Shown here in pieces: positions 3,003-27,527 of a DNA stretch of 27,983 nucleotides (positions are counted from its first letter, which is position 1; each line of letters begins with the position of its first letter). The stretch lies in the IMG/VR virus record IMGVR_UViG_3300006802_000419, positions 1-27,983 of that record; one strand, written 5' to 3'. The notes below the pieces were generated by a model. The model did not search any database, had not been told where the DNA came from, and worked only from the letters and a program-made list of their open reading frames with translations. This DNA is from a virus. The position numbers were made by a program, and so were the translations under genes.

Positions 3003-3914
3003 ATGGCACATTATATTGAAGAAAAACTAAAGTTCTATTTGGATAGAGTTAATTCTAACCCAAATATGCTTTCTGACGAACTTATTGAAGAAATCAAGAA
3101 AGCTGTTGGTAAGGCATTAAATAAACAATTTAATGAACTTAATGGCAAGTTTAGATTATCCATGTCTGCTATTGGTAGGCCATTATGTCAATTGCAGATG
3201 CAAAAGAGCGATGCAGCTAGATTAGAGGAAGAATACCATAAGCCTCTACAGATGCTATATGGTGATATTATTGAAGCTATTATGGTGCCTTTATTAAAGG
3301 CTGCTGGTGTGGTTATTCAAAGCGAGCAAGAACACGTTAAGCTTAATTTAGATTGGGGATCAGGCTCATTAGAAATTCCAGGCACACTAGACTTAATGAT
3401 TGATGATCTTGTTTGGGACGTTAAGTCCGTATCTCCATGGGTATTCAAGAATAAGTTTACTTCCTATGAAAACGTCAAGGCAGATGATACTTTTGGGTAT
3501 GTAGGACAACTTTATTTATATGGTAAGGCTAAGAGTAAGAAGGTTGGTGGTTGGATTATTGTAGATAAGTCTTCTGGGGAAATTCGTGTTGTTGAATTTC
3601 CACAAGATCAAGTTGCGGAACAGCAAGAAGTTTTAGTACAAGTTACCAATAATGTGAAGGAGCTTGTAGAAAACGCCCCCTTTCGTAGGTCGTATACCGA
3701 TATCAGCGAGAAATTCAGGAAGAAAGATACAGGTAACAGGTATCTCACCAAAGCTTGTGAGTTCTGCCCTTATAGATTTACCTGCTGGCCCACTCTCATT
3801 CACTCTAAAGCCCTCAGAAGTGAGGCTAAAGACCCTCCATGGCGATATTATACCCATATCCAAGAAGGAACAAATAAAAATGAAAATAGCGTCAGCGAAA
3901 GCGAAGGGTCGTAA
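3003..3914 (+). CDS. RecB/Cas4-like PD-(D/E)XK exonuclease with Fe-S cysteines
   Basis: This is a probable DNA exonuclease for recombination, replication or host DNA breakdown. The nuclease signature is visible: GTLD with D130, then D139-V-K141, followed by a QLYLY motif (Q169) as in RecB-type domains. One cysteine before the core (C62) and three after it (C252, C255, C261, in CEFCPYRFTC) match the split four-cysteine cluster that holds a 4Fe-4S centre in Cas4 and AddB. The length (303 aa) suits a stand-alone phage nuclease. Its 3' end overlaps the next nuclease gene by 35 bases. Confidence 0.85.
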   Translation: MAHYIEEKLKFYLDRVNSNPNMLSDELIEEIKKAVGKALNKQFNELNGKFRLSMSAIGRPLCQLQMQKSDAARLEEEYHKPLQMLYGDIIEAIMVPLLKAAGVVIQSEQEHVKLNLDWGSGSLEIPGTLDLMIDDLVWDVKSVSPWVFKNKFTSYENVKADDTFGYVGQLYLYGKAKSKKVGGWIIVDKSSGEIRVVEFPQDQVAEQQEVLVQVTNNVKELVENAPFRRSYTDISEKFRKKDTGNRYLTKACEFCPYRFTCWPTLIHSKALRSEAKDPPWRYYTHIQEGTNKNENSVSESEGS

Positions 3915-6604: not shown

Positions 6605-6779
6605 GTACGGGTCATTTAATGCTGTTATGGATACAATAGAAGACCCCACTAAAAATAATAAAAAGAAAGACACAAATGCCGGGACCAAAAAATCCAAACT
6701 CAAAGATATTTTATGTGTATCAACATCGTTGTCCAAAAACGAAAAAGATAATGTATATAGGCCATGGGAACGGAAGTAG
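6597..6779 (+). CDS. Possible remnant of a small gene disrupted by a nuclease gene
   Basis: The ATG at 6597 overlaps the preceding gene by 8 bases, as is normal in this operon. The first 25 or so codons (MSKYGSFNAVMDTIEDP...) look like ordinary phage protein, then turn into Lys/Asn/Thr-rich sequence that overlaps the GIY-YIG nuclease gene in another frame from 6676. The likeliest reading is a small gene whose 3' part was replaced when the nuclease gene arrived. It may still make a 60-residue product. Confidence 0.4.
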   Translation: MSKYGSFNAVMDTIEDPTKNNKKKDTNAGTKKSKLKDILCVSTSLSKNEKDNVYRPWERK

Positions 6780-7134
6780 GGCGTGGATATATGGGAAGCA
6801 ACATAGAAGCCTAGAACATTATAATTGGCTTACAGAACTTTTTGAGGAGGGATACACATTAGATCAAATAGTCAAAATATCCAACAAAAAATTAACAAAA
6901 CAAGAAGCTTTGATTATAGAATTAGATAAGATTAATAAAGAGAGGCCAGAGCACAACAAGAACTTTAAAAATGCTGGATGTAAATTCTCGGAAGAAGATG
7001 TAAAATTAATGCAAATTTTACGAAAGAGAGGTTTTAGTTATCCACAAATTGCTAAAGAATTAAATTGCGCTGCTATGACTGTACATAGAGCATTAAGTAA
7101 TAAAACAAAAGGATACAACATAAAAAATGTCTAA
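6676..7134 (+). CDS. GIY-YIG endonuclease with C-terminal helix-turn-helix (homing type)
   Basis: The nuclease domain shows YVY (13-15), YIG (27-29), R35 and the later EALIIE helix (77-82), the order found in GIY-YIG enzymes. Residues about 106-142 form a helix-turn-helix (EEDVKLMQILRKRGFSYPQI..., then MTVHRAL), a DNA-recognition module common in homing endonucleases. It lies directly upstream of nrdJ, overlapping its start by 8 bases. It is probably a selfish free-standing endonuclease that cuts phages lacking it. The exact target is unknown. Confidence 0.8.
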   Translation: MPGPKNPNSKIFYVYQHRCPKTKKIMYIGHGNGSRAWIYGKQHRSLEHYNWLTELFEEGYTLDQIVKISNKKLTKQEALIIELDKINKERPEHNKNFKNAGCKFSEEDVKLMQILRKRGFSYPQIAKELNCAAMTVHRALSNKTKGYNIKNV

Positions 7135-10075: not shown

Positions 10076-10266
10076 TGGCTGTTATTCCAGATTTATTTTA
10101 TTAGAAAGTAATATGTAGAATTAAGCAGGATGTTCTTGAAGAAGAAAAAGAGAATATTAAAGAGCTTCTTTATAAGCTCTTCAAAGAAGATGTACTTAGA
10201 GTAGCTATTAATGGTTTTCCAGAGTGGTATAAACAATATTTAGCCAATGCCATCACCAAAGAATAG
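10075..10266 (+). pseudogene. Small gene interrupted by an in-frame amber codon
   Basis: The ATG at 10075 overlaps the preceding stop as in intact neighbours, but codon 10 is TAG. The same frame then continues 53 codons with convincing protein character (helical, Glu/Lys-rich, then NGFPEWYKQYLANAI) to a second TAG at 10264-10266. No ATG, GTG or TTG lies in frame just after the first stop to restart it. It overlaps the nuclease gene at 10247. It may be a decaying gene, a sequencing error or amber readthrough. It fills the space between genes. Confidence 0.5.
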
Positions 10267-10678
10267 AAACCGAGTATGCAAAAAGTGCCAAAACCCATTT
10301 GAAATAAACACGAATGGGACAAAATACTTGTATTGTTCTGCGGATTGTGCCCTACGCTATAATAGAGAAAAACACATAGAATTACGTAAAAGGAGTGGAA
10401 CATATAAAAAATGGATGCGGCATAGATATTATAAAATTACATATAAAATATCTGACGATGAAAAAGATGATATATTAAAGAGACAAGAAGGCGTTTGTGC
10501 TATTTGTGAAAGTATTGTAGATAATCCTAAAAATTGGCATTTAGATCATTGTCACGTAACGGGAAAAATTAGAGGCGTACTATGTCATAAATGTAATCAA
10601 GGTTTGGGATTATTTAAAGACGATATTATAATTTTAGAAAAGGCTATAAAATATTTAAATGAAAATAGAATACCTTAA
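10247..10678 (+). CDS. Endonuclease VII-like HNH nuclease (homing type)
   Basis: The C-terminal half matches the T4 endonuclease VII family: zinc cysteines C84/C87 and C113/C116 flank the core LDHCHVTGKIRG (H101, H103), followed by CHKCNQGLGLFKDD. An extra N-terminal zinc knuckle (C11, C14, C30, C34) is present. Phage genomes carry many such stand-alone nucleases, acting either as junction resolvases or as mobile homing enzymes. The position between a broken small gene and thyX, whose start it overlaps by 20 bases, favours the mobile interpretation. Confidence 0.82.
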   Translation: MPSPKNRNRVCKKCQNPFEINTNGTKYLYCSADCALRYNREKHIELRKRSGTYKKWMRHRYYKITYKISDDEKDDILKRQEGVCAICESIVDNPKNWHLDHCHVTGKIRGVLCHKCNQGLGLFKDDIIILEKAIKYLNENRIP

Positions 10679-25067: not shown

Positions 25068-25081
25068 GCATCAGCCTTTAA

Positions 25082-25115
25082 GAAAAAGGCCGAAGCCGAA
25101 CACCGGCCCCGGCCT
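25082..25115 (-). terminator. Rho-independent terminator after the head genes
   Basis: On the minus strand, AGGCCGGGGCCG and CGGCTTCGGCCT pair over 12 positions (with two G-U pairs) around the loop GTGTT and are followed by TTTTTC. This is the strongest terminator in the window. It would reduce transcription from the capsid genes into the tail genes. A second AT-rich hairpin (GTAAGG with CCTTAC, 25132-25160) lies just before it. Confidence 0.8.
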
Positions 25116-25173
25116 ATAGGATAAATAAATAGTAAGGTTATTTAGAAAATATATCCTTACCTTTTTAGTTGAT

Positions 25174-25713
25174 TTAGTTAACTCGCTGAACTACTTGAGT
25201 TAGATCGGCCATAACTGCAAAGATACGAACCTTAGCATCTGCTACCGCAGTACCAACAGTGACACGGACAGTTGTACCGTTAGCACTACCAACCACGTAA
25301 CCAATTGCGCCTGTTGCTGTAGTAGAAGCAGTAGGATCAGCAATTGCGAATGCAGCAGAACTTAGTGTAGTTCCTGTAGCATTCATAGTAGCTGCAGAAA
25401 GCAGAGTAGTAGCAGGAGCTACGAGAGATACAGCGATAGTACCAGTAGTATTAGCTGTGGCTGCTCGAATAACCTCTCTACCTGCAAGTAGCACTAGAGA
25501 CTTGGTTGGGACAGGAAGAACATCAATAGTATCTCCTGAAACAACTGAAGTTAAGCTAGTGTAATAGTTGTTCTGATAAGTAGAAGCAACTACTGCAGTT
25601 GTGCTAAGATCGAAGACCTTATCAGCGACGTAGAGAAGATTAACATCTTTTCTAGTCTCATGAGCAGGACTTGATGTTGAGTTATAACCTAGGGCGACTA
25701 CGAAGTTAGCCAT
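25174..25713 (-). CDS. Putative head decoration or minor capsid protein (179 aa)
   Basis: This is an Ala/Thr/Val-rich, beta-strand-type protein lacking Cys, placed directly after the major capsid gene and before a strong terminator. AAGGAG lies just before the ATG. The repetitive beta sequence (TANTTGTIAVSLVAPATT...) suits a small surface protein such as a head fibre or cement protein. I do not recognise a specific family. Confidence 0.5.
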   Translation of the reverse strand: MANFVVALGYNSTSSPAHETRKDVNLLYVADKVFDLSTTAVVASTYQNNYYTSLTSVVSGDTIDVLPVPTKSLVLLAGREVIRAATANTTGTIAVSLVAPATTLLSAATMNATGTTLSSAAFAIADPTASTTATGAIGYVVGSANGTTVRVTVGTAVADAKVRIFAVMADLTQVVQRVN

Positions 25714-25730
25714 ATTATTATCTCCTTACC

Positions 25731-26914
25731 TTATGCGCCACGGTTATAATAGACTACAGCAAGAGCATCTTGACGTAAAGTCTTACGACCGTATAAGTGT
25801 AGACCTCTAACAACATCCGCAAAGCTATCTGGATCTCTAAAGGTCTCAGTCTTTGCAATCTGCGAAACAGTAGCAGTTGAAGACATATGACCAGCTAGAA
25901 GAATACCATAGTCAGTTGATGCAGAGCTATCAGGTCCAATACCGCCAGTGGTTAGTGAGTTAGACATGTAGCAGCTAAAGCCACGAATATCACCTTCGAT
26001 AACTTTACCGTTCCACATACCAGTTCTCATTTGAGACTTAGCGTCACCTGTTTGGTTGACTTGCATAAGTCTGCTTTCCTCTTGCTGCATTTGCTCCCAG
26101 AAGAAAGGACCAGCAACAAACCAGCGACCATCAGTAGGAACGTTTAATTCGTCAAACTTACGATTTAGACGTGCCATAATATTTAGAGGAGAGAAACCGC
26201 CTGTTGGAGGAGAAACTCTAACAGCAGTTGGTGAAGCAGTTGAGCCTACAATAGTCTGTGCTTGTCCTGCCATATAAGTGAGAACTTCAGAATCAAATGC
26301 GTCTTTGATTTTGAATGAGGCTCTTTCAGAAGCTAGAGATTCCCAATTAACGTGAGAATGCTTGGCTTCAATATCGTCTACCTTGTAGGCAAACTTATTA
26401 GCCTTATCAACAACCATTGTAATATCGTTGTCAATTAGGTCAACAGGAACAACTTGCTGTCCTCGTACATATGGAGAGACAGTAACATCAGGCTCTAGGA
26501 TGATTCTAACAGAGTCACCATAGTTTGAGATTTCACCTGCATAATCGGTATTAGTAATTGCTTCAATTACTGAAACACGTCTAAAGGTTTTTAGAACCTT
26601 TTGGCTGAAAATAACGGGACTAAAAGCGCCGTTTGGTAAATTGCCGTCAAATACTTGTTATCGTTAAGTTTTTTATCTTAACTTCTACTTATTACTAAGT
26701 AGTTCAGACTATATCATCTTCCCTTTAGTGGGAGTTGGGCGCTCTTGGAGTTATTATTCTTTCGTCAAACTCTAGTCGTTGAACCTTTTACTGCCCTGGG
26801 GCCTAAACCTTACATCAGTAACTTGGCTGCTGATTGTCCAGAAGGATGTCCCAGCAATTCACCCAATTTAATCAGGCCCGGTTAATTTAAGCCTGCGGCG
26901 ACTGGAAACGCCAT
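25731..26914 (-). CDS. Major capsid protein, split by a group I intron
   Basis: Exon 1 starts at 26914 with AAGGAG (26922-26927) upstream and encodes MAFPVAAG. The intron follows (about 26889-26654) and exon 2 runs to 25731. Exon 2 encodes GNLPNGAFSPVIFSQKVLKTFRR...NTDYAGEISNYGDSVRI, then KANKFAYKVDDIEAKHSH, a pattern of capsid proteins from marine podoviruses. Splicing after 26890 and joining at 26653 gives a 315-residue protein; joining 26889 to 26643 gives 312. Without splicing, translation would stop after ten codons, and exon 2 has no start near its 5' end. Gene order (scaffold before, minor head protein after) supports the call. Confidence 0.88.
26654..26889 (-). ncRNA. Group I self-splicing intron in the major capsid gene
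   Basis: Core elements occur in the right order on the minus strand. P1 pairs exon CAGGCTT with GGGCCTG, with U-G at the splice site. P is AATTGCTGGGA (26849-26859), Q is AATCAGCAGCCAAG (26822-26835), R is GTTCAACGACTAGA (26771-26784) and S is AAGATGATATAGTC (26707-26720); GACTA/TAGTC form P7. Two 3' hairpins follow: CTACTTA/TAAGTAG (26685-26702) and GTTAAG/CTTAAC (26663-26682). The 3' end is probably G26654, or G26644 as the alternative; both keep the frame. The intron is about 236 nt and contains no ORF. The 5' sequence resembles the start of the T4 td intron. Confidence 0.9.
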
Positions 26915-26921
26915 GTAAATT

Positions 26922-26927
26922 CTCCTT
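26922..26927 (-). promoter_or_regulatory. Ribosome binding site of the capsid exon 1
   Basis: AAGGAG lies seven bases before ATG 26914. It fixes the true capsid start upstream of the intron and rules out the internal Met at 26417 as the gene start. Confidence 0.8.
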
Positions 26928-27020
26928 AAGTTTCAATGCGTTATTAAATATTTTGCTTTGAACAAGGTGGCTTTTACACGACGGTATTTCCCTTAATGGG
27001 GGCGTCAGAAAAGGTAAAAC

Positions 27021-27527
27021 CTAGTCTAATTTAGAATTTGCTAGTTTAATTAATTTTTTGAACTCTTCTTCTGAATAGTCCAATTTCATTTGATTAATAA
27101 ACCAACAAACCCACCTTACATTATCTTTAGTATAGCCCTTTGAAGAATCAATTCTATCTAAAGAAGCTTGATAAGGATTTTTAGTTTCTGGGGCCTTAGT
27201 AAATTCTAAGGGATATCCAGTAAATTCACATAATCCGTTTTGATTAGTCCAGAGTTTCTTTAAAAATTCTTCATCTAAATCAAAACCGTTATATAATTTA
27301 GTAGCACGTCTACGAGATTGTCCCAAAACAGTGATTATAAAGCCGTCAAAACTATTTCGATATTTAAATTTTAATTCTTTAATAAATTCAGGCTTTTTTA
27401 GTCTGTATTCTTTAGCTTTTATTGCTTGGCAGGACTTACATATTGTTCGCCTGCCATATCTACCGTGTTTGTGCTTATCAAAATCTTCTAAATTTTTATC
27501 AACGCCACACAAAGTACAAATAATCAT
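27021..27527 (-). CDS. Free-standing HNH endonuclease next to the intron-containing capsid gene
   Basis: An N-terminal zinc pair (C4/C7 and C30/C33, IICTLCGVDK...ICKSC) precedes an HNH core with SLDRIDSSKGY (D124, D127), N136 in DNVRW and N145. This subtype is frequent among phage homing nucleases. AAGAGGAAAAT lies directly before the ATG. The gene is outside the intron, about 100 bases upstream of capsid exon 1 and after the scaffold gene. It may cut intron-less capsid alleles and help spread the neighbouring intron. The 106 bases to exon 1 contain only a weak GACG/CGTC hairpin. Confidence 0.85.
   Translation of the reverse strand: MIICTLCGVDKNLEDFDKHKHGRYGRRTICKSCQAIKAKEYRLKKPEFIKELKFKYRNSFDGFIITVLGQSRRRATKLYNGFDLDEEFLKKLWTNQNGLCEFTGYPLEFTKAPETKNPYQASLDRIDSSKGYTKDNVRWVCWFINQMKLDYSEEEFKKLIKLANSKLD

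Follow-up and report, generated by a model that had tools for sequence, protein, structure and literature searches.

Phage group I introns are known to have an in-frame stop codon close to their 5′ splice site, and in the published view such a stop helps to prevent ribosomes from disrupting intron folding (PMC3984707). One capsid intron, that of mycobacteriophage LittleE, is spliced during infection (PMC3706429). Two other phage systems pair an ORF-less intron with an adjoining free-standing endonuclease gene: the psbA intron of cyanophage S-PM2, located in a conserved gene and accompanied by the F-CphI gene (PMC6083498), and ICP1, in which a T5orf172 HEG lies next to a terL exon (PMC10448857). 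The same collaborative-homing gene arrangement, in which an intact free-standing HEG adjoins an ORF-less intron, was found at the major capsid gene in a virus record of 27,983 bases from IMG/VR (the whole stretch is referred to here as the window).

The initial annotation described a compact group I intron within the major capsid gene, with P, Q, R and S core elements, two 3′ hairpins and a P1 whose splice-site pair is U·G, and proposed a covariance-model search. The Rfam model Intron_gpI (RF00028) matches positions 26955–26685 on the minus strand over its full length (cmscan, 79.3 bits, E = 7.4e-19, gathering score 50), and no second group I intron was detected with cmscan in the whole 27,983 bases. 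Every element read by eye is present, including the P4–P7 core, the P1 U·G and the 3′ hairpins P9 (26702–26685) and P9.1 (26682–26663), and the intron contains no ORF, as annotated. The gene product is assigned to PHROG 267 (major head protein, E = 4.6e-52). In phage records (tblastn), its closest matches are coat proteins from HMO-2011 and from Roseobacter CRP and Rhizobium phages, with 40–46% identity, which points to an HMO-2011-like podovirus. The capsid gene is organized as follows.

26922–26927, minus strand: Shine-Dalgarno sequence AAGGAG of the capsid gene, read from the sequence.
26890–26914, minus strand: exon 1 of the major capsid gene, ATG...GGC T, eight codons plus 1 nt (25 nt), placed by alignment to the capsid protein of the intronless relative L002.
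26648–26889, minus strand: group I intron of 242 nt, ORF-less, ending with omega-G at 26648, placed by RF00028, covariation, and the splice sites of relatives.
25731–26647, minus strand: exon 2 of the major capsid gene, AC GGC AAT TTA CCA ..., a P22/HMO-2011-type coat protein (PHROG 267, tblastn).

Homology to intronless relatives places both splice sites. The major capsid protein (MCP) of L002 is 94% identical and starts MAFPVAAGYGNLPNG; exon 1 is therefore 26914–26890 and the intron 26889–26648. Joining 26890 to 26647 yields MAFPVAAGYGNLPNGAFSP..., with the junction inside codon 9 (U joined to AC, Tyr), and the spliced MCP has a full length of 313 aa and shares its first 20 residues with L002. 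At the junction, Gly-Tyr-x-Asn-Leu or a close variant is present in most of some 80 relatives, and in the intronless relatives, which read ...AAGY-x-NLPNG, exactly one residue separates Tyr from Asn. Because this single residue is given only by U joined to AC GGC AAU, the 3′ splice site is 26648. The two sites originally offered, 26654 and 26644, are contradicted by the relatives: the former gives AAGLFDGNLPNG, with two additional residues and the Tyr lost, and the latter gives AAGFNLPNG, one residue too few. The annotated position eight codons into the gene is accurate apart from one extra base (5′ site after 26890), and the estimated length of about 236 nt is revised to 242 nt. These borders leave an exon U at the 5′ splice site and an intron G at the 3′ end. 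Against phage GenBank records, the nucleotide sequence of the region gave only short matches. We put the probability of a spliced group I intron at 26889–26648 in the major capsid gene at roughly 0.92.

The structure of the ribozyme was drawn from the window (P3, P4, P5, P6/6a/6b, P7, P7.1, P8, and P9) and compared across 20 phage-contig introns that share its P7.1 subtype. Its elements, in the order of transcription, are listed below.

26890–26895, minus strand: 5′ strand of P1, exon CAGGCU, the last U pairing with the G at the splice site.
26882–26884, minus strand: in-frame stop UAA in the P1 loop, from translation of the exon 1 frame, met by ribosomes on unspliced RNA.
26873–26878, minus strand: 3′ strand of P1 and internal guide sequence GGCCUG, complementary to the end of exon 1.
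26860–26866, minus strand: 5′ strand of P3, partner 26741–26735, 100% paired in the 20 relatives, with double changes at two pairs.
26827–26857, minus strand: P4/P5 domain, P4 (26857–26852 with 26832–26827) invariant, P5 between with two covarying pairs.
26773–26777, minus strand: 5′ strand of P7, GACUA, partner 26711–26707, invariant in the 20 relatives.
26748–26772, minus strand: P7.1 hairpin with a conserved UGACGAAAGAAUAAU loop, also in L003 and about 50 other phage contigs among the matches listed.
26735–26741, minus strand: 3′ strand of P3, CGCCCAA, from covariation.
26720–26733, minus strand: P8 hairpin UCCC/GGGA, from the sequence and the Rfam alignment.
26707–26711, minus strand: 3′ strand of P7, UAGUC, from the covariation alignment.
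26685–26702, minus strand: P9 hairpin CUACUU/AAGUAG, 79.5% of cells paired, double changes at five pairs.
26663–26682, minus strand: P9.1 hairpin GUUAAG/CUUAAC, from the sequence.

Across the 20 introns, the drawn P3–P9 structure is paired in 93.5% of 889 cells, compared to 26–45% when the partners were slid as a control. Compensatory double changes account for 144 cells, versus 42.7 in shuffles and 12–36 in slid controls; changes on both sides occur at 25 pairs, and the count of 144 was reached in none of 500 shuffles. P4, P6, and P7 are invariant. P8 is paired in only 38.5% of cells; it is poorly aligned, which makes covariation a weak test of it. The CAGGCU/GGCCUG hairpin of P1 has a predicted stability of −8.7 kcal/mol with flanks. 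A placement of P1 upstream of the ATG, with the real P1 treated as an insertion, appears in the Rfam alignment and is ruled out by the strength of this hairpin and by guide sequences that match the exons at each insertion site. P10 in the window intron, drawn by eye, has only 3 bp (exon CGG with guide CCG) and a bulged A; 5 bp are possible in the introns of L003 and L215. Judged by P7.1, the intron appears IA-like.

These data also bear on whether the insert is a decayed, non-splicing remnant or an assembly artefact, with the capsid protein made from an internal start. Splicing of this gene is read from DNA sequence, and exon 2 does have an in-frame ATG, the first at 26417. A start there would cost about 80 residues that are present in relatives; moreover, the core is intact with all P3–P7 pairs conserved, and the same intron subtype occurs on independent contigs. 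We consider a remnant or artefact very improbable. The intron is a genuine element of an ordinary type with corrected boundaries; it is compact, ORF-less, and probably self-splicing. The guide GGCCUG would pair with exon CAGGCU, guanosine would cleave after the U at 26890, and this U would be ligated to the A at 26647 following omega-G (26648), restoring codon 9 (Tyr) and the capsid protein.

Initiating ribosomes on unspliced RNA would stop after 10 codons in the P1 loop, from the start codon at 26914 to the TAA at 26884–26882, both correctly located in the initial annotation, and therefore would not plough through the ribozyme core. Such an early stop fits the published view that it helps to protect intron folding. 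The same annotation held that translation and splicing must compete closely, and a stronger form of this idea is that the near-start position is a regulatory device in which the efficiency of splicing, in competition with initiating ribosomes, sets the timing of late capsid synthesis or limits it. An exon 1 of only 25 nt and a stop codon inside the P1 loop are compatible with such a device, as is the known dependence of T4 intron splicing on translation, for which PMC3984707 and the discussion of PMC11878797 cite other work. However, each of the eight near-start introns measured has its first in-frame stop ending 3–15 nt past the 5′ splice site, so the arrangement is a general organization and not evidence of special competition. 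Folding of pre-mRNA and spliced mRNA predicted no clear change in the accessibility of the ribosome-binding site, and control of this accessibility by splicing was rejected for the same reason. Intron presence and position also vary freely among relatives, including the intronless one with a 94% identical MCP. A regulatory device is accordingly improbable.

Introns near the start of capsid genes are not unusual, contrary to the initial annotation: HMO-2011-like and other phage capsid genes have been invaded repeatedly near their starts. The contig collection was sampled, and the cases given are examples among the matches listed, not frequencies; they comprise near-start introns in three other loci of the window's capsid family and in several unrelated capsid families. 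Within the HMO-2011-like family, L003 (MCP 76% identical) and L215 carry the same intron subtype inserted 14 nt further on (between GNLP and NGAF in L003), and their guide sequences fit their own exons (UCCCU/GGGGA in L003 and UUGCCU/GGGCAA in L215). The capsid gene of L186 has an intron after 60 nt, and those of L093, L122/L148, L126, and L162 have introns further in. Every insertion site found in this family falls in the first third of the gene, and L126 and L162 apparently have two group I introns each. SU10-type capsid genes have introns after 54–77 nt (L205, L223, L219, and L095; L219 was placed in this type by the common REDL(E/T)D start and not by a domain search). A wider set assigned to the SU10 type by domain or N-terminal motif, with L225, L236, L241, and L175 in addition to these four, has introns at or near ...REDL(T/E/S)D, again 54–77 nt from the start codon. 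The intron of a T7 gp10A-type capsid gene (L118) follows about 30 codons, and that of a cap-E-type gene (L124) about 9 codons. A further contig, L158 (8849 bases, part of a 279-kb phage contig), has the intron core motif four times within 2 kb. A literature search found no paper on introns in HMO-2011-like capsid genes.

The gene directly upstream of the capsid gene, overlooked in the initial annotation, offers a possible source of mobility.

27021–27527, minus strand: intact free-standing HNH endonuclease gene, 168 aa (PHROG 1035, E = 7e-33; phrog_3322, phrog_3118).

Despite the PHROG name endonuclease VII, homology of this protein to F-CphI (Endo VII, DHHRN) is not claimed: its motif is LDRID...N, and its only PDB leads are Hpy99I and PacI (E about 0.15). 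The intron interrupts the coding sequence after base 25 and would have spread at the DNA level: the HNH nuclease would cut intron-minus capsid alleles near the site, and repair would copy the nuclease gene and the intron together. Collaborative homing by the neighboring nuclease is one plausible route, which we rate a little under even odds. Even odds are given to the alternative, in which the HNH gene is an intergenic homing gene in its own right, with a cleavage site elsewhere, and the intron arrived otherwise (from a lost intron-encoded nuclease or by reverse splicing), the two sharing a conserved neighborhood. This alternative opposes only the homing part of our explanation.

The distribution of the HNH gene bears on both. 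Among the capsid loci fetched, relatives of this gene in the slot upstream of the capsid gene were found only in L002 (64% identical) and L003 (27%), and the complete genome ctYwJ313 also has an HNH gene in this slot. The slot is thus filled in four phages, two of which have a capsid intron, and this restricted occurrence, half of it with introns, argues against independence. L002 and ctYwJ313 keep the gene without the intron, so the nuclease need not target the insertion site, which favors an independent gene. So does L003, in which a premature stop disrupts the HNH gene (3068–3508) upstream of the intron-bearing capsid gene and the intron persists with an intact core. No relative of the window's HNH gene was detected on the contigs of L093 and L186, whose capsid genes have introns, and HEG turnover has been noted as an alternative to collaborative homing (PMC10448857).

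Codon identity around the insertion site weighs on the side of homing. The first 20 residues of the window and L002 MCPs are identical, yet only 4 of 19 informative codons match there, versus 156 of 265 (59%) elsewhere, and synonymous divergence in this one phage pair peaks sharply at the insertion site. A comparable drop in codon identity occurred in none of 239 intronless capsid-gene pairs (the pairs are non-independent), and a significant local drop was absent from four other genes of the window/L002 pair. The pattern would fit co-conversion from a distant donor or escape mutations in L002, and local synonymous divergence could have other causes. Taken with the cases in other families, our tentative overall reading, with the odds leaning against it, is that the 5′ ends of capsid genes are a recurrent landing zone for group I introns across unrelated families, where an ORF-less intron is here maintained in trans by HNH homing.

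Other features were noted elsewhere in the window. Two more putative homing-type endonuclease ORFs, recognized by eye from their translations, lie on the plus strand at 6676–7134 and 10247–10678, adjoining ribonucleotide reductase-like and thyX-like genes. After the gene at 25713–25174, a strong hairpin with a U-run (25076–25169, minus strand) is a likely intrinsic terminator; an L20_leader match at the same position has a weak score and was attributed to chance.

The corrected splice sites belong to an essential phage gene, and gene callers would truncate the capsid gene here. Recurrent near-start capsid introns provide a natural set for testing splicing alongside translation initiation, and the window intron and its HNH gene form a candidate pair for collaborative homing at a capsid gene.

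Compared with described phage group I introns (T4 td, nrdB, and nrdD, and SPO1 DNA polymerase; RF00028), the window intron has the same P3–P9 core, U·G at the 5′ splice site, terminal G, and early in-frame stop; it differs in its host gene, the major capsid gene, in its very short exon 1, and in lacking an internal endonuclease ORF. The LittleE intron, also probably of group I and also inside a major capsid gene, shares the exon-end U and the intron-end G, but it is about 819 nt long, has a LAGLIDADG-like frame, and interrupts an HK97-type capsid gene past the N-terminal delta domain (PMC3706429). The capsid introns of the HMO-2011-like relatives (L003/L215, L186, L093, L126, L122/L148, and L162) occupy the same gene and have related cores at other insertion sites; unlike the window, some have long inserts and some apparently occur as two per gene. 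The candidate homing partner in the window is an HNH nuclease with an LDRID motif, unlike the DHHRN nuclease F-CphI of S-PM2 or the T5orf172 nuclease of ICP1.
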